DNA of 45,446 nt, taken from assembly GCA_029974925.1 (NCBI GenBank), contig JARKQH010000123.1:1-45446 (forward strand), written 5' to 3'. The translations under genes were made by a program, and so were the position numbers. This stretch comes from Verrucomicrobiota bacterium. Its GTDB lineage: Bacteria; Verrucomicrobiota; Verrucomicrobiia; Limisphaerales; UBA8199. Below, in pieces: positions 7,901 through 13,634 of this stretch (positions are counted from its first letter, which is position 1; every line of letters begins with the position of its first letter). The notes under the pieces were generated by a model that made no database searches, was not told the DNA's origin, and was given only the letters and a program-made list of their open reading frames with translations.

Positions 7901-8365
7901 ATGCGCGGAATCGGAATTGTTCTGCTGTTGGGCGGGGTGTTCTTCGGCATGCCCTCGCCGGCGGCGACGGGCCGGGTCCTGAAGGTGCTTCCCCATTACC
8001 TGGACGCCAGCGGGAAGCACACGGTCTCGCCCAGTTTGTATGACCGGGACGCCTACCAGTACCAGTTGCGCGAACAGCCCCAGCGACGGGGCGGCATGCG
8101 GTTCGATATTCATTGGAAAACCAAGGGCGCGGCGTATGCGCCCCTCCGGTTGATTCTCGAGTTGCGGGGAGTGGCCCAGGGGAGCCTGCCGAAACAATTG
8201 GTGCTGGCCAGCCCGGCCGAAGGGGGCCGGGGATGGTTCGGGCGCTGGACTCCGATCACGCTGACGGCTGCGGAGTACAAGCACATCGGAGAGGTCACAG
8301 CCTGGCGGGTGACCTTGTGGGAAGGGAACGAACTGCTTTCGGAACAAAAATCCTTTTTGTGGTAG
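7901..8365 (+). CDS. Small exported protein of unknown function
   Basis: A 154-residue product with an N-terminal signal peptide (MRGIGIVLLLGGVFFGMPSPAA). I do not recognise a named family. The mature part has alternating beta-type segments (FDIHWKTKG, LRLILELRG, VTAWRVTLWEG), suggesting a small all-beta periplasmic or envelope domain. ATG 7901 is preferred because everything upstream in this frame lacks protein character and the signal peptide begins here. It is followed after only 14 nt by the HDED-like membrane protein, so the two probably form an operon and may work together at the envelope. Confidence 0.6.
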   Translation: MRGIGIVLLLGGVFFGMPSPAATGRVLKVLPHYLDASGKHTVSPSLYDRDAYQYQLREQPQRRGGMRFDIHWKTKGAAYAPLRLILELRGVAQGSLPKQLVLASPAEGGRGWFGRWTPITLTAAEYKHIGEVTAWRVTLWEGNELLSEQKSFLW

Positions 8366-8379
8366 CCTTACGGACCTGC

Positions 8380-9843
8380 ATGGCTTGGAGCCGCGCTGCC
8401 GGATGCGTTCGGGGCGCACTGGCGGCGGGCCTGCTTGCTGTGGGCGGGTCGGGGGGGGCAGCGGCCGGCGTCGTGCCGGATTACCGGGTGGGAGAGGTGG
8501 CCACCCAGGCGGTGGTGACGCCGTTTCCGCTGGTGGTGGTAGATCCCGAGAAGACGGCTGTCCTCAGGGCGAAGGAGGCGGGCAAGGTCCAGGTGCTGTG
8601 CCGGTATTACACCAACGCGCCCGATATGGCCGAGGCGGATTTGCGCGAGCTGTTTTTGCAGACGCGCACGAACTTCCTGCAACGCATGCAAGGGAGTTTC
8701 AAACGGGCCCGGCTTGACGAGGCGACGGTCGCCTCGCCCCGCTTCGCGCGGTTTGTCGAGAATTTTCAACGGCAGAACCGTTTGCTGCCGGTTACCACGA
8801 ACCTGGCCGCGCTGTGGGCGCAGCGACAATCCGACCGGGTGTTGCAGGCGTCGCTGGCGGCCGCGCTTCGGGAAACCACTTCGCGGCCGATTCGAGCCCA
8901 GGCGGTTCCGGCCGAGTTGAAATTGGGGCCGACGCTTCGGCTGGTGCCGGTGGGGGCTGGGGAGGAGTCGCTTTCGCTGGAACTGGCCAGGCAGCGCGCT
9001 TATCCGGTGGCGCGCAGCAATGTGGTGCTCCTGGCCCAGGCGCGGGCGGACTTTGTGGCGGGGCTGCCGGAAGAGGCAAGGGGCTTGGGGCAGTTCCTCG
9101 CCGGACGCATCCAGGCGAATTGCATCCCGGACGCGGTGCTGACGCGGCAGGCGCGCGCGGAGCAAACGGAACACTTGCTGGCCGCGGACCGCTACCAGGC
9201 GGGGCAGGTGCTGGTCAGGGAGGGCGAAATTGTCACGGCCCGCGTCCGTGCCGCCTTGGACTTGTTGCGCGAAAAAAGCGCGCTGGCCGAGTGGAGTCAG
9301 GCGCGCCAGGCACTGCCACCCCGGCAAATCCGGCGCGAGTGGATTGTCCTGGGCGGCGGCGGGGCCCTGGGACTGGCGGGGGTCGCGGCCTGGCTGATTT
9401 CGAGGCGCCGGAGCGGGATGCGCCTGTTGCCCGCGCGGTTGGCTGGCGATGGAAGCCGGGCCACCATCGTTTCCTGTCCTGCGTGTTCCCAGACCATTGT
9501 CGTGCCCGGGCCAGGGGAGGAAGTGGCCGGGGTGCCGGAGTCCTGGATTCCCCACGTGATGCGGCTGTTGAAGGACCGGCTGCTGCAGCGGTTGCTGGCC
9601 CAGCGGGCGGGCTTGATGGATACCCAACAACTGGCGGCGGCGGAGCTGGCGGAGTTGGAGGCCCGGCTGCAGAAAATGCAGGCGCCCTTGCAGGAACGCC
9701 TGCGAGCCTATGAGGCCCGAATCATCGAGTTGGAGCGGGAGCTGGCCCGGAAGGGAGAGGAGAATCGCGAGCTGATCCGGGCGAGAATCCAGGTCATGCG
9801 GACCCAGATGGCGGCGGTTCGAAACCGGCTGGAGGTCAACTGA
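8380..9843 (+). CDS. Membrane protein with 7TMR-HDED-like extracytoplasmic domain, one TM helix and cytoplasmic coiled coil
   Basis: A 487-residue membrane protein. Residues 1-30 form a signal or anchor segment. Residues about 44-305 resemble the extracellular 7TMR-HDED domain of PgpH-type c-di-AMP phosphodiesterases: the start (VVVDPEKTAVLRAKEAGKV) and the end (DRYQAGQVLVREGEIVTARV) both show the family pattern. A single TM helix follows (about 321-341, WIVLGGGGALGLAGVAAWLI). The cytoplasmic part has a lone CPAC pair (366-369) and a long coiled coil rich in Glu, Leu and Arg (about 390-485). The seven-TM bundle and HD phosphodiesterase domain that normally follow HDED are absent. ATG 8380 gives the signal segment. 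Function unknown; an envelope sensor is an inference. The next gene downstream before the IS arrived was the Ser/Thr kinase. Confidence 0.65.
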   Translation: MAWSRAAGCVRGALAAGLLAVGGSGGAAAGVVPDYRVGEVATQAVVTPFPLVVVDPEKTAVLRAKEAGKVQVLCRYYTNAPDMAEADLRELFLQTRTNFLQRMQGSFKRARLDEATVASPRFARFVENFQRQNRLLPVTTNLAALWAQRQSDRVLQASLAAALRETTSRPIRAQAVPAELKLGPTLRLVPVGAGEESLSLELARQRAYPVARSNVVLLAQARADFVAGLPEEARGLGQFLAGRIQANCIPDAVLTRQARAEQTEHLLAADRYQAGQVLVREGEIVTARVRAALDLLREKSALAEWSQARQALPPRQIRREWIVLGGGGALGLAGVAAWLISRRRSGMRLLPARLAGDGSRATIVSCPACSQTIVVPGPGEEVAGVPESWIPHVMRLLKDRLLQRLLAQRAGLMDTQQLAAAELAELEARLQKMQAPLQERLRAYEARIIELERELARKGEENRELIRARIQVMRTQMAAVRNRLEVN

Positions 9844-9885: not shown

Positions 9886-9912
9886 GCCAAAGGCAGCGAC
9901 AGCCAAAGGCAG
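9886..9912. repeat. Short tandem repeat (11-nt unit, 16-nt period) at the IS insertion point
   Basis: GCCAAAGGCAG occurs at 9886-9896 and again at 9902-9912, a 16-nt period in the short spacer after the HDED gene. The IS entered inside the second copy, so part of this repeat became the target duplication. Confidence 0.7.
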
Positions 9913-9915
9913 TGA
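9907..9915. repeat. Target-site duplication, left copy
   Basis: AGGCAGTGA lies immediately outside the left terminal repeat and is repeated exactly at 11686-11694 outside the right one. A 9-bp direct repeat flanking perfect inverted ends is the mark of transposition. Confidence 0.9.
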
Positions 9916-9937
9916 GGGTGGACGAGATAAAAGTGGG
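9916..9937 (+). repeat. IS left terminal inverted repeat (22 bp)
   Basis: Starts GGGTGGACGAG and ends AAAAGTGGG. It is the exact reverse complement of 11664-11685. Pairing stops at the base just outside (9915/11686) and just inside (9938/11663), which fixes the element ends. Confidence 0.95.
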
Positions 9938-9939
9938 GG

Positions 9940-11346
9940 CTAAGGGGCGCGAGAGGCCCAGAAGTCTTCAAAGCGGCCGGACATAATGCAGCAGCGCAGG
10001 GCAATGATCGCATTGGCTCCGCGGACCGACCAACGCATTCCCGACTGCTTGAGGCGCTCCCCGATGACCGTACGGCAGCCCGCCTCGACCACGCCGGATC
10101 CGATGAAGAACTTCTTTTTCCGATACTCGGCGTAGTGCATGTGTGAGGCATTGTTCTCGAAGTAGCCCAGTTCTTGACGCAGGGCCTTTCTCCTTTTGGC
10201 CGAACTGGGCAACCGTTTGCCGGCTTGGTGGATGAGCCGCCCGATGTTGCCGTCCTCCAGCAAGTCGCGCCAGGCTGGTGGAGACTCTGCCTGTGGTCCC
10301 CAGAAGATCCGGGCGATGAGCGTCAGGTGCTCGAAGGCGTGGAACAGATCCACGATATGCACGGCGTCTGGAAAATGGGTTTGAGCGATGGTGTGGTTGT
10401 AACGCTGGCCATCGGTGAGCACGATGACGGTTTGGGCTTGCTCCAGGCCCCGCCGCAAGGCCTCAGCATACATCCGCCAGCCAAAGAGCGTGCTCGACTC
10501 AATCGCCCCGACGTAGGTGGTCGAATCGGGATCGCGCTGGGGACGGCCCTCCCTGTCCAGGCCAACCTGGGTGAACACGCAGCCCAGCTTGACCTCGCGG
10601 GTCCGAGCCGACCCGTCAGCCTGTTTGCCGGGACGTCCGACCAGCTCGTTTTTTCGTACGGGAACGCCGGTGCCGTCGAAGCTCACATAAAACTTGGTCC
10701 CGGTTTGCAGTTTGGGGGGAGCGTGGATGCCGTGCTGCACGAGGTGCGCCTGTTCTTCGGAGAGCCATTGTTCGACCTGCCGCCCCACCTCTTCGGCGAC
10801 GCGCTCGATTTCCCGGGGCTCAATCCTCAAACCGCCGTAACAGAGCAGATCTTCGGCGGCCTGCTCGAACTGGGTTTGGCTGCCCGCCCGTGCCATGAGG
10901 CGTCGGACCCCGGGCGAATAGGTGGTGTTAACGATGTCCAAACGCTCGTCATCGGGGAAACGGCTCTGATGGCATTGGTCGCACTGGTAAAAGGAGCGGG
11001 CAAACGGCACCGATCCAAGCGTGGTTAACAGTCCCTTGGCCCGGCGCCCCCGGCTGGTCATGCGCTGGCCGCATTGGCACCGGATGACTGGCCGGGGATC
11101 ATGCGCTTGCCAGTGGGTGAGCAAGCTGCCCAGCACTCCCGCTCCGCCCTGGCGAGCCGCTTGGAGCATGAGCGTCTCCCACGCCTCGAAATCAGGGCTC
11201 TGCCGGCTCGCCAGGGCCGTGGCCAGACCCCGCACCTCAGCGCTTTGTTCCAGTTCGACCAGGAGTTTTTTTTTGCACGACCTCCGCCACCGCCAACGCG
11301 CCCAGTTCTTCGCCCACGCGCACCAACTGATCGACCACCCGTTCAA
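9940..11346 (-). CDS. ISKra4-family transposase (downstream frame, probably made by frameshift)
   Basis: DDE-type transposase with a zinc-binding N-terminal region (CQCGQRM and YQCDQCHQSRFPDD), a first catalytic Asp in VSFDGTGVPV, a second in VIVLTDGQRYNHT or HIVDLFHAFEHL, and a catalytic Glu in GSGVVEAGCRTVIGERLK followed by the family hallmark SGMRWSVRGAN. The only start codon in this frame is a TTG at 11346; between it and the A9 run at 11266-11274 the frame reads as Trp-rich shadow sequence that overlaps the real DUF6788 frame. Protein-like sequence begins at the A run (KKKLLVELEQ). I therefore infer expression as a fusion to the upstream ORF through a +1 shift or transcriptional slippage. 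The catalytic domain is full length and shows no stop. Confidence 0.88.
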   Translation of the reverse strand: MNGWSISWCAWAKNWARWRWRRSCKKKLLVELEQSAEVRGLATALASRQSPDFEAWETLMLQAARQGGAGVLGSLLTHWQAHDPRPVIRCQCGQRMTSRGRRAKGLLTTLGSVPFARSFYQCDQCHQSRFPDDERLDIVNTTYSPGVRRLMARAGSQTQFEQAAEDLLCYGGLRIEPREIERVAEEVGRQVEQWLSEEQAHLVQHGIHAPPKLQTGTKFYVSFDGTGVPVRKNELVGRPGKQADGSARTREVKLGCVFTQVGLDREGRPQRDPDSTTYVGAIESSTLFGWRMYAEALRRGLEQAQTVIVLTDGQRYNHTIAQTHFPDAVHIVDLFHAFEHLTLIARIFWGPQAESPPAWRDLLEDGNIGRLIHQAGKRLPSSAKRRKALRQELGYFENNASHMHYAEYRKKKFFIGSGVVEAGCRTVIGERLKQSGMRWSVRGANAIIALRCCIMSGRFEDFWASRAP

Positions 11347-11608
11347 ATTCGCGCATCGTTTGAATCTGTCGGCGGTAGAGCGGGACCAGGGCGGGATCGG
11401 TCAGTCGCACCGAGACCGTCTTCTGGGCCTCTTTGCGGGTCAGCAACGGATAGGGGCCGCGTTTGACCGTGGAGCCGTCGGCGTGTTTGACGGTCAGGAA
11501 CTGTTCGGTCAGCGAACCGCGGCGCAATTCGCGCAAGTCGGCCAGTTGCCGCAGGAGACCCTGACGCTGTTGTTCGAGGGGGGAGTAACTGGCAGCAGGA
11601 GTTTTCAT
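11237..11608 (-). CDS. DUF6788-like first ORF of the ISKra4 element
   Basis: A 123-residue ORF of the kind that precedes ISKra4-family transposases. It has a helical N-terminus (SPLEQQRQGLLRQLADLRE), the family-like core GSLTEQF then KRGPYPLLTRKEA, and a helical end (YRRQIQTMREFERVVDQLVR). The CGNPxCxC cluster seen in many DUF6788 proteins is not present; HADGSTVKRGPY occupies that place. The last 13 or so residues (TPGRTGTKR) lie after the A9 run and look like frame read-out rather than protein. It starts at ATG 11608, which sits inside the left edge of a perfect inverted repeat. The likely role is the N-terminal, possibly DNA-binding, part of the transposase; that is inference. Confidence 0.75.
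   Translation of the reverse strand: MKTPAASYSPLEQQRQGLLRQLADLRELRRGSLTEQFLTVKHADGSTVKRGPYPLLTRKEAQKTVSVRLTDPALVPLYRRQIQTMREFERVVDQLVRVGEELGALAVAEVVQKKTPGRTGTKR
11266..11274 (-). promoter_or_regulatory. A9 slippage site joining the two IS frames
   Basis: On the minus strand the sequence reads GTGC-A9-CTCC. The upstream ORF reads CAA AAA AAA ACT across it; the transposase reads AAA AAA AAA CTC, one base later, so a +1 shift (or loss of one A, or gain of two, during transcription) joins them. Confidence 0.7.
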
Positions 11609-11632
11609 ATTGTAGTCATCATACTACAATAT
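11607..11632. promoter_or_regulatory. Perfect inverted repeat over the first IS start codon
   Basis: Arms ATATTGTAGT (11607-11616) and ACTACAATAT (11623-11632) are exact reverse complements around a 6-nt centre. The repeat covers the start codon of the DUF6788-like ORF (11606-11608) and a candidate -10 box. It could be an operator, or an RNA hairpin that hides the start when transcripts enter from outside, as known for IS10 and IS50. Confidence 0.6.
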
Positions 11633-11647
11633 ACCGGGCAAAAACAA
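11618..11647 (-). promoter_or_regulatory. Candidate promoter of the IS
   Basis: Minus-strand TTGTTT (11642-11647) and TATGAT (11618-11623) are 18 nt apart, a fair match to a housekeeping -35/-10 pair. Transcription would begin only a few bases before the ATG at 11608. Prediction by eye. Confidence 0.4.
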
Positions 11648-11663
11648 GGAAAAAACTCCAAAA

Positions 11664-11685
11664 CCCACTTTTATCTCGTCCACCC
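11664..11685 (-). repeat. IS right terminal inverted repeat (22 bp)
   Basis: Exact reverse complement of 9916-9937; read on the minus strand it begins GGGTGGACGAG. Confidence 0.95.
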
Positions 11686-11694
11686 AGGCAGTGA
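11686..11694. repeat. Target-site duplication, right copy
   Basis: AGGCAGTGA, identical to 9907-9915, directly outside the right inverted repeat and 18 nt before the kinase start codon. Confidence 0.9.
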
Positions 11695-11712: not shown

Positions 11713-12747
11713 ATGCCGCAACATCAGTTTGTGGGCCTGTTTACAATTCAGAGCGAGTTCCACTACGACATCGTCCGCAAGCTTTACGAGGGCGGGATGG
11801 GGATCGTGTACGAGGCGGAGCAGCATGGGGCCCGCGGTTTCATCAAGCGAGTGGCCATCAAGGTCATCCGCCAGAATTACGCGGATCAAAAGCAGTTCAT
11901 CGAGAATTTTATCGGGGAGGCCAAGCTGGTGGCGGACCTGATCCACACCAACATTGTTCAGACCTACCACCTGGGCCAGACCCAGAATGTTTATTTCATT
12001 GCGATGGAACTGATTCGGGGGGTGAATCTCGAGCAGTTCTCCCAGCAACTGGCCGCGAAGCGGACCTTGCTTCCGGTCGAACTGGCCGTGTTCATTGTCA
12101 GCCGGGTGGCCCGGGGCCTGGCGTACGCGCATGCCAAAACCGACAGCCAGGGCCGTCCCCTGGGGATTGTGCACCGGGATGTGAGCTTCAAGAACATCAT
12201 GATTGCCTTCGAGGGGGACGTCAAACTGACGGATTTCGGGATCGCCAAGGCCCGTGGCTTTCTGGTGGACAATGAAGGGGAGGTGGTGGCGGGGAAGGCG
12301 GATTACATGAGTCCCGAGCAGGCGAATTTCAAGATTACGGACAAGCGGTCGGACCTGTTTTCGGCCGGGGTGGTGCTGGCGCACCTGCTGCTGGGGCGCA
12401 ACCTGTTCAAGGGGGCGACGGCGGAGGAATCGCGCAAGCGGATGATTGAAATGCCGATTCCCGATTTTCGGGCGCTGGACCCGCGGGTGGACGATCGGTT
12501 GAACGAAATACTGCACCGGGCGCTGGCGCGCAACCTGGATCAACGGTATCCGAACGCCGACGAAATGCTCTACGATCTCGAGCACTATATTTACCACTCG
12601 GGCTATGGTCCGACCAACGAGACCATGGGGCGGTTCATGCGCGAGCTGTTCGACCAGCAGGTGCCGGCCGCTCCCGCGCAGCGCACCCGCGGCACGACGG
12701 AACTGCTCGAACCCGCCAACATTTACGCTTCCAAGAAAACGAAATGA
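11713..12747 (+). CDS. Soluble serine/threonine protein kinase (Hanks type)
   Basis: A 344-residue kinase. The Gly loop is LYEGGMGIVYEAE (about 24-36), the ATP lysine is in VAIKVI (Lys50) with its partner Glu69, the catalytic loop is HRDVSFKN (Asp156), the metal-binding DFG is at 174-176, and SPEQ follows as the P+1 element. The residue two after the catalytic Asp is Ser instead of Lys, as in the HRDVSPxN-type kinases of myxobacteria. The domain ends near residue 293; the remaining 50 residues are polar with no TM helix, so the protein should be cytoplasmic. ATG 11713 is 18 nt from the IS duplication, so its original upstream control has probably been lost or replaced. It overlaps the next gene by ATGA. 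Confidence 0.9.
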   Translation: MPQHQFVGLFTIQSEFHYDIVRKLYEGGMGIVYEAEQHGARGFIKRVAIKVIRQNYADQKQFIENFIGEAKLVADLIHTNIVQTYHLGQTQNVYFIAMELIRGVNLEQFSQQLAAKRTLLPVELAVFIVSRVARGLAYAHAKTDSQGRPLGIVHRDVSFKNIMIAFEGDVKLTDFGIAKARGFLVDNEGEVVAGKADYMSPEQANFKITDKRSDLFSAGVVLAHLLLGRNLFKGATAEESRKRMIEMPIPDFRALDPRVDDRLNEILHRALARNLDQRYPNADEMLYDLEHYIYHSGYGPTNETMGRFMRELFDQQVPAAPAQRTRGTTELLEPANIYASKKTK

Positions 12748-13634
12748 CGTCCCCCACTCGCGACCCGGTTACGGTCGGCCTGATTCAAACCTCGTGCTCG
12801 GCGCATCCGGCGGAAAACGTTGAAAGGACGCGGTCGCTGGCGGACCGCGCGGCGCGCGAGGGCGCGCAGATCGTCTGCACGCAGGAGTTGTTTCGCTCGC
12901 AGTATTTTTGCCAGTCGGAAGATCATCAGTATTTTGCGCTGGCCGAGCCCATTCCGGGGCCGACGACGGAGGTTTTTCAGCACCTGGCGCGGGAGCGTCA
13001 GGTGGTGATGGTTGTATCGCTTTTCGAGCGCCGGGCGCCGGGAGTCTATCATAACACGGCGGTGGTGATTGACGCGGATGGAACGTTGCTGGGCCGCTAC
13101 CGCAAGATGCACATTCCCGATGACCCGTTGTTTTATGAGAAGTTCTATTTCACGCCTGGGGACTTGGGCTTCAAAGCCTGGACCACGCGTTATGGACGGA
13201 TTGGCGTGCTGGTCTGCTGGGATCAATGGTATCCGGAAGCGGCGCGGCTGACGGCGCTGCAAGGGGCCGAAATCCTGTTTTATCCCACCGCCATCGGGTG
13301 GCATCCGGCGGAGAAAGCGGAACACGGCGTGGCGCAGCATTCCGCGTGGGAAACCATCCAGCGGGGGCATGCAATTGCCAACGGCTGTTATGTTGCGGCG
13401 GTGAACCGGATTGGACACGAGAAGCTGGCGGGAGAGGGCATCGAATTCTGGGGCCAGAGTTTTGTGGCGGGCCCCTCGGGGCAGATTCTGGCCAAGGCCA
13501 GCGCCGACCGGGAAGAGATTCTGATGACGACCGTGGATTTGCGGCGGGTGGAGGAGACGCGCACGCATTGGCCGTTCCTGCGCGACCGCCGCATTGACGC
13601 GTACGGGGACATCACCCGGCGCCTGCTGGATTGA
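12744..13634 (+). CDS. aguB: N-carbamoylputrescine amidase
   Basis: Nitrilase-superfamily enzyme of the agmatine route to putrescine, hydrolysing N-carbamoylputrescine to putrescine, CO2 and ammonia. The catalytic triad is visible: Glu48 in TQELFRSQYF, Lys121 in YRKMHIPDD and Cys158 in VLVCWDQWYPEAAR. The AguB-specific segment CQSEDHQYFALAEPIPGP favours this substrate over other carbon-nitrogen hydrolases, and 296 residues is the normal length. It overlaps the kinase stop by 4 nt (ATGA), and the next gene starts at a TTG overlapping its own stop, so it is translationally coupled on both sides. Agmatine deiminase (AguA), the preceding enzyme, is not in the window. Confidence 0.9.
   Translation: MTSPTRDPVTVGLIQTSCSAHPAENVERTRSLADRAAREGAQIVCTQELFRSQYFCQSEDHQYFALAEPIPGPTTEVFQHLARERQVVMVVSLFERRAPGVYHNTAVVIDADGTLLGRYRKMHIPDDPLFYEKFYFTPGDLGFKAWTTRYGRIGVLVCWDQWYPEAARLTALQGAEILFYPTAIGWHPAEKAEHGVAQHSAWETIQRGHAIANGCYVAAVNRIGHEKLAGEGIEFWGQSFVAGPSGQILAKASADREEILMTTVDLRRVEETRTHWPFLRDRRIDAYGDITRRLLD

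Follow-up and report, generated by a model that had tools for sequence, protein, structure and literature searches.

The gene at 8380-9843 of the window (the whole stretch of DNA analysed, 45,446 nucleotides) encodes an HDED ectodomain that is separated from the 7TM-HD enzyme of PgpH-type phosphodiesterases and is carried on a single transmembrane (TM) helix followed by a coiled coil; the C-terminal part, the CC module, is shared with proteins in which other, exchangeable front ends take the place of the HDED. In our estimate there is about an even chance that the gene encodes an inner-membrane HDED receptor or adaptor, which would couple an extracytoplasmic input to a cytoplasmic complex of the CC module with a TPR protein. 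Somewhat more tentatively, we propose that it belongs to a so far undescribed system for transmembrane signalling or scaffolding in the Limisphaerales, an order known mostly from metagenome-assembled genomes, in which a small exported protein (SML), the CC module and the TPR partner would be constant and the input would be swapped between lineages, HDED being one of at least six inputs. If this is true, SML, CC and TPR with their exchangeable front ends form a new modular membrane system in this order. To our knowledge, HDED has been described only in PgpH, where it forms the ectodomain, and no ligand or role has been established for it. A natural HDED that stands apart from the enzyme and beside a conserved exported partner offers a handle on what the domain binds, and, being so separated, its sensing could be studied alone. 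A literature search, whose coverage left out most subscription papers, yielded no account of HDED in proteins other than PgpH, nor any of the SML/CC/TPR set.

The 8380-9843 frame (plus strand) is open over 487 codons. A Pfam search showed that residues 36-296 of its product match 7TMR-HDED (PF07697) with an E value of 7.1e-16, over positions 1-220 of the 224 of the profile and with a score of 59.3 bits (curated cut-off 27.6), while the E value was 2.1e-16 when the whole genome was scanned. This nearly full-length match confirmed the HDED-type ectodomain claimed in the preliminary description, and the segment that it had taken to close the domain, DRYQAGQVLVREGEIVTARV (residues 270-289), indeed lies at the end of the match. 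The AlphaFold2 model of this region was confident (block pLDDT about 84-96 over residues 31-300) and gave one long helix at the C terminus (residues 387-486). Hydropathy and sequence placed an N-terminal hydrophobic segment before the HDED, and hydropathy placed one TM helix after it, followed by a CPAC motif and a coiled coil (residues 386-485). The Pfam search gave no match of the protein to 7TM-7TMR_HD (PF07698) or HD and, beyond the HDED, only weak coiled-coil matches. From the profile match, the model and the single TM helix taken together, we conclude that the HDED is genuine and that the 7TM bundle and the HD domain are absent, as the preliminary description had proposed. No solved relative of the HDED model was found by sequence or by fold, and searching by fold with the complete model yielded nothing useful. 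The predicted topology, drawn from hydropathy and positive charges, has the HDED outward and the CC module in the cytoplasm. The coordinates of all features are collected in the table.

Features of the locus in the window (positions are those of the window; a strand given as "." is unassigned)
Feature	Position	Strand	Description
SML, small exported protein	7901..8365	+	154 aa, signal sequence; directly upstream of the HDED-TM-CC gene
HDED-TM-CC gene	8359..9843	+	likely start GTG 8359; open frame and starts of relatives
HDED ectodomain	8485..9267	+	residues 36-296; PF07697 match and confident model
Predicted transmembrane helix	9334..9414	+	residues 319-345, hydrophobic stretch about 322-340; hydropathy peak 1.92; Arg-rich flank, predicted cytoplasmic
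CPAC pair in linker	9475..9486	+	residues 366-369
CC module	9535..9837	+	common to proteins with other N-terminal domains
ISKra4-family insertion sequence	9916..11685	.	transposase 9940-11346 on the minus strand, E 1.6e-85
Ser/Thr protein kinase	11713..12747	+	Pkinase, E 4.9e-36

Two details of the preliminary description were altered. It had the gene start at ATG 8380, 14 nt after the small exported protein. Most HDED relatives begin with MV or VV and overlap the stop of SML by 7 nt; because GTG 8359 reproduces this arrangement exactly, it is probably the true start, and the 14-nt gap is therefore likely an overlap, the position of SML directly upstream being itself conserved. The lone CPAC pair is present, but only 4 of 42 HDED ORFs have a CxxC in their linker, and its reading as a zinc hook, or as a hallmark of the family, was rejected.

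The genome that holds the window (G000; 5.7 Mb, 97.6% complete) contains a single HDED. Across 293 Limisphaerales genomes, an HDED match was found in 38 and exceeded the cut-off in 35. Among the 42 distinct HDED ORFs of the fetched loci, 35 carried the CC module, two carried a TPR tail and none carried 7TM or HD, the other five being located at contig ends or having interrupted frames or, in one instance, a divergent tail. HDED in the Limisphaerales is thus found almost only as HDED-TM-CC, and none of the 293 genomes showed HDED and 7TM-HD joined in a single chain. Since most of these ORFs end in the CC module and none ends in 7TM-HD, the HDED protein is not a PgpH. We give practically no credence to its being a decaying, functionless remnant of PgpH: in one relative the two domains are separated by an in-frame stop, but the frame is intact in the window, the HDED is kept full-length at 30-40% identity over many families, and the neighbours recur. 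In that relative (L113:4724-6988, from a Baikal Pedosphaera assembly), the HDED-CC frame is broken by a TAA, which represents either a pseudogene or an assembly error. Beyond the order the CC module was rare: in a sample of 240 genomes of the phylum, it was carried only by G000 and G380. The latter genome, a single contig, belongs to a different order of the same class and has an HDED-CC gene with a convergent TPR gene (L169:2539-5518); SML was not found upstream of this HDED-CC gene.

Only 4 of the 293 genomes had a 7TM-7TMR_HD match over the cut-off; the frames were 487-508 residues long, and the two that we read, those of G000 and G156, had no HDED. The protein of G000 (G000:C338:21415-22875; L102:1366-2826) is a phosphodiesterase-like protein of 487 aa, 66% identical to one in G006. 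Cyclases of the DAC family were found in 263 of the 293 genomes, including G000, and c-di-AMP is therefore probably made in these bacteria. Alternatively, the HDED protein could act in trans, as a detached sensor that serves a 7TM-HD c-di-AMP phosphodiesterase encoded separately, and G000 does have both the HDED-less 7TM-HD protein, on another contig, and the cyclase. We consider this very unlikely: a 7TM-HD protein over the cut-off was missing from 34 of 36 HDED genomes, HDED was missing from two of the four genomes with 7TM-HD (Fisher p 0.075), and the two genes were unlinked. Because of the 34 genomes, the HDED protein appears not to depend on a 7TM-HD protein, and co-occurrence gave no support to HDED as its obligate trans partner.

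Half of the first relatives of the 8380-9843 protein matched it by the C terminus alone and differed in their N termini. The CC module, searched with a profile (A1) whose E value of 4.2e-37 on the window is so by construction, the window sequence being in the alignment, was found in 86 of the 293 Limisphaerales genomes; against solved structures, the profile matched generic coiled coils only. The 100 distinct CC sequences carried an HDED (35), a zinc ribbon (24), an Exo_endo_phos-like domain (17), an OB-like domain (4) or others, FHA included (20). The Exo_endo_phos-like and GH5-like front ends were assigned by Pfam (E 4e-10 and 3e-10, respectively) and the OB-like one by eye, and most of the 24 zinc-ribbon proteins had no evident TM helix, also by eye. 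The exchange is visible at short range, the nearest relative of the window CC being that of G002, a member of the same family, in which SML is 57% and CC 58% identical, a TPR gene is adjacent, and an OB-like domain is located where the window has the HDED. On the CC tree, the front-end labels needed at least 17 changes; the tree (104 columns) was poorly resolved, and its starred branches forced just three changes for HDED, few because the module is short. At one locus (L182:683-1453), an FHA domain precedes the CC module, with no HDED, between SML and a convergent TPR gene. At another (L048:6091-8319), a GH5/cellulase-like exported domain sits on the same TM-CC tail, and similar long forms occur at L158, L159, L162 and L164.

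Two neighbours of the CC gene were conserved. One is SML, which lies immediately upstream in the same orientation; the other is a convergent gene, whose TPR protein has about three TPRs, a signal sequence and a single TM helix. Neither this partner nor the exchangeable front ends are in the preliminary description. Comparison of the 293 genomes showed that 79 had both CC and TPR, one CC only, seven TPR only and 206 neither, counts that are uncorrected for phylogeny. Within a single genus of 35 genomes, the corresponding numbers were 25, 0, 2 and 8, and this pattern argues for a link between CC and TPR. Fusions were also found, as HDED-TM-TPR (L240 and L243) and as CC-zinc ribbon-TPR (L209 and L238). 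No linked TPR gene was seen in the window, and the two TPR homologues of G000 are both on other contigs.

SML gave no match in the Pfam search, and its orthologues in the Limisphaerales were 41-57% identical and nearly all in the same place. A scan of named genomes anchored on SML returned 80 loci, all of them in genomes assigned to Verrucomicrobiota or labelled simply as bacterium. A CC/HDED gene was next to SML at 42 of them, with the convergent TPR gene as well at 31 of these 42, and about half of the loci (38/80) had no CC gene. A second context also recurred upstream of SML, consisting of ABC_transp_aux, DUF4340 and AsmA/YhdP-like genes (L193:441-6922; also L184, L185, L190, L212 and L218).

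The third gene that the preliminary description had assigned to the module, the Ser/Thr kinase, gave a different result. The ISKra4 element that now separates it from the HDED-TM-CC gene has perfect 22-bp inverted repeats at its ends and is flanked by a 9-bp target duplication (9907-9915 and 11686-11694); it is an unrelated intruder that left both genes unbroken. Once it is subtracted, the kinase ATG falls 90 nt after the HDED-TM-CC stop, so that the spacing of about 90 nt claimed for the time before the insertion agrees with these boundaries and with the duplication. This spacing on a common strand, together with the FHA-CC relative at L182, would suit the proposal that the HDED-CC protein and the downstream kinase are an envelope-sensing pair. 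However, a search with the window kinase found no relative of it beside any other fetched locus of the HDED/CC type, the sole match being a weak one at an SML locus without CC. The kinase also overlaps a CN_hydrolase gene by 4 nt (window 11713-13634) and therefore looks like part of a translationally coupled pair of its own. The sensing pair is thus extremely unlikely, and we rejected the kinase as a partner on the neighbours in relatives, in which SML is kept upstream of the HDED/CC gene and the kinase is absent beside it.

The main rival to the receptor or adaptor comes from other neighbours. It holds that SML, the X-CC protein (X being any front end) and the TPR protein serve as accessory or assembly components of a pseudopilin machine of the type II secretion or type IV pilus-like kind, and that the HDED is a structural periplasmic domain and no sensor. 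A gspK-like gene was directly upstream of SML at 29 of the 80 loci, mostly within gspF-H-I-J-K, and six of these 29 had HDED; it was more frequent with a CC gene (23/37) than without (5/36). The operon of L240 was confirmed by T2SSF (E 5.7e-62) and T2SSK_1st (E 3.9e-17). The AlphaFold2 model of SML, a beta-sandwich with helices (pLDDT 87), aligned with Akkermansia Amuc_1102 (Z 8.6, 118 residues, rmsd 4.3), encoded in the pili-associated cluster Amuc_1098-1102 (PMC5332112). It is the gspF-K linkage and this fold match that make a secretion or pilus role the main rival. The linkage, however, was seen within the genome sample in genus g52 alone and was absent from the window and from most other HDED loci, the gspK of G000 being on another contig than the HDED locus. 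The Amuc_1102 alignment was tied with Ig-like beta-sandwich domains of GH2 enzymes and had no counterpart in a sequence match. The 8380-9843 protein had no Pfam or NCBIfam match to GspL, GspM or GspC, and the CC proteins tested had no Pfam match to them. On this balance, a secretion or pilus part is possible but rather unlikely, although the locus of one genus, after the pseudopilin genes, may point to a machine part over a sensor.

The reading as a receptor or adaptor builds on what the analysis establishes, namely the HDED match and the protein architecture, the linkage and co-occurrence of the genes, the fusions and the swap of front ends; the membrane topology, the binding of SML, the contact of CC with TPR and signalling itself are inferred. 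For the receptor or adaptor, we propose the following mechanism. The exported HDED, held by one TM helix and joined to the cytoplasmic coiled coil, would bind a partner or ligand outside the cytoplasm, SML being a possible one, and the CC module would dock to the cytoplasmic portion of the TPR protein and so relay or localise the state of the HDED. The modular series would run from exported SML through X-(TM)-CC to the convergent membrane TPR protein, with HDED, Exo_endo_phos-like, OB-like, GH5-like, zinc ribbon, FHA or no domain as X in different lineages. No output enzyme or regulator is known for the CC-TPR set, and the unlinked TPR homologues of G000, the poor resolution of the CC tree and the SML loci without CC also weigh against the receptor or adaptor.

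Comparison with known systems showed likenesses and differences in each instance. Amuc_1102 of Akkermansia muciniphila resembles SML as an exported beta-sandwich from a pili-associated cluster of a Verrucomicrobiota member and differs from it in sequence, its fold match being shared with the unrelated GH2 domains. The X-CC gene that in one genus comes after gspF-H-I-J-K is near the usual place of gspL and gspM; apart from the missing family match, HDED-TM-CC has the opposite predicted orientation to GspL, GspM and GspC, with its N terminus exported and its C terminus in the cytoplasm. PgpH, a 7TM-HD c-di-AMP phosphodiesterase, shares the HDED (PF07697), extracytoplasmic in PgpH and predicted to be so here, with the 8380-9843 protein, which has one TM helix rather than seven and a coiled-coil tail without HD. 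Histidine kinases and chemoreceptors of the one-helix type match the predicted layout of HDED-TM-CC, with an exported N-terminal domain, a TM helix and a helical cytoplasmic part, and likewise place exchangeable inputs on a constant output module, whereas HDED-TM-CC carries no kinase, cyclase, chemoreceptor or DNA-binding output and has a coiled coil that is linked to a separate TPR protein.
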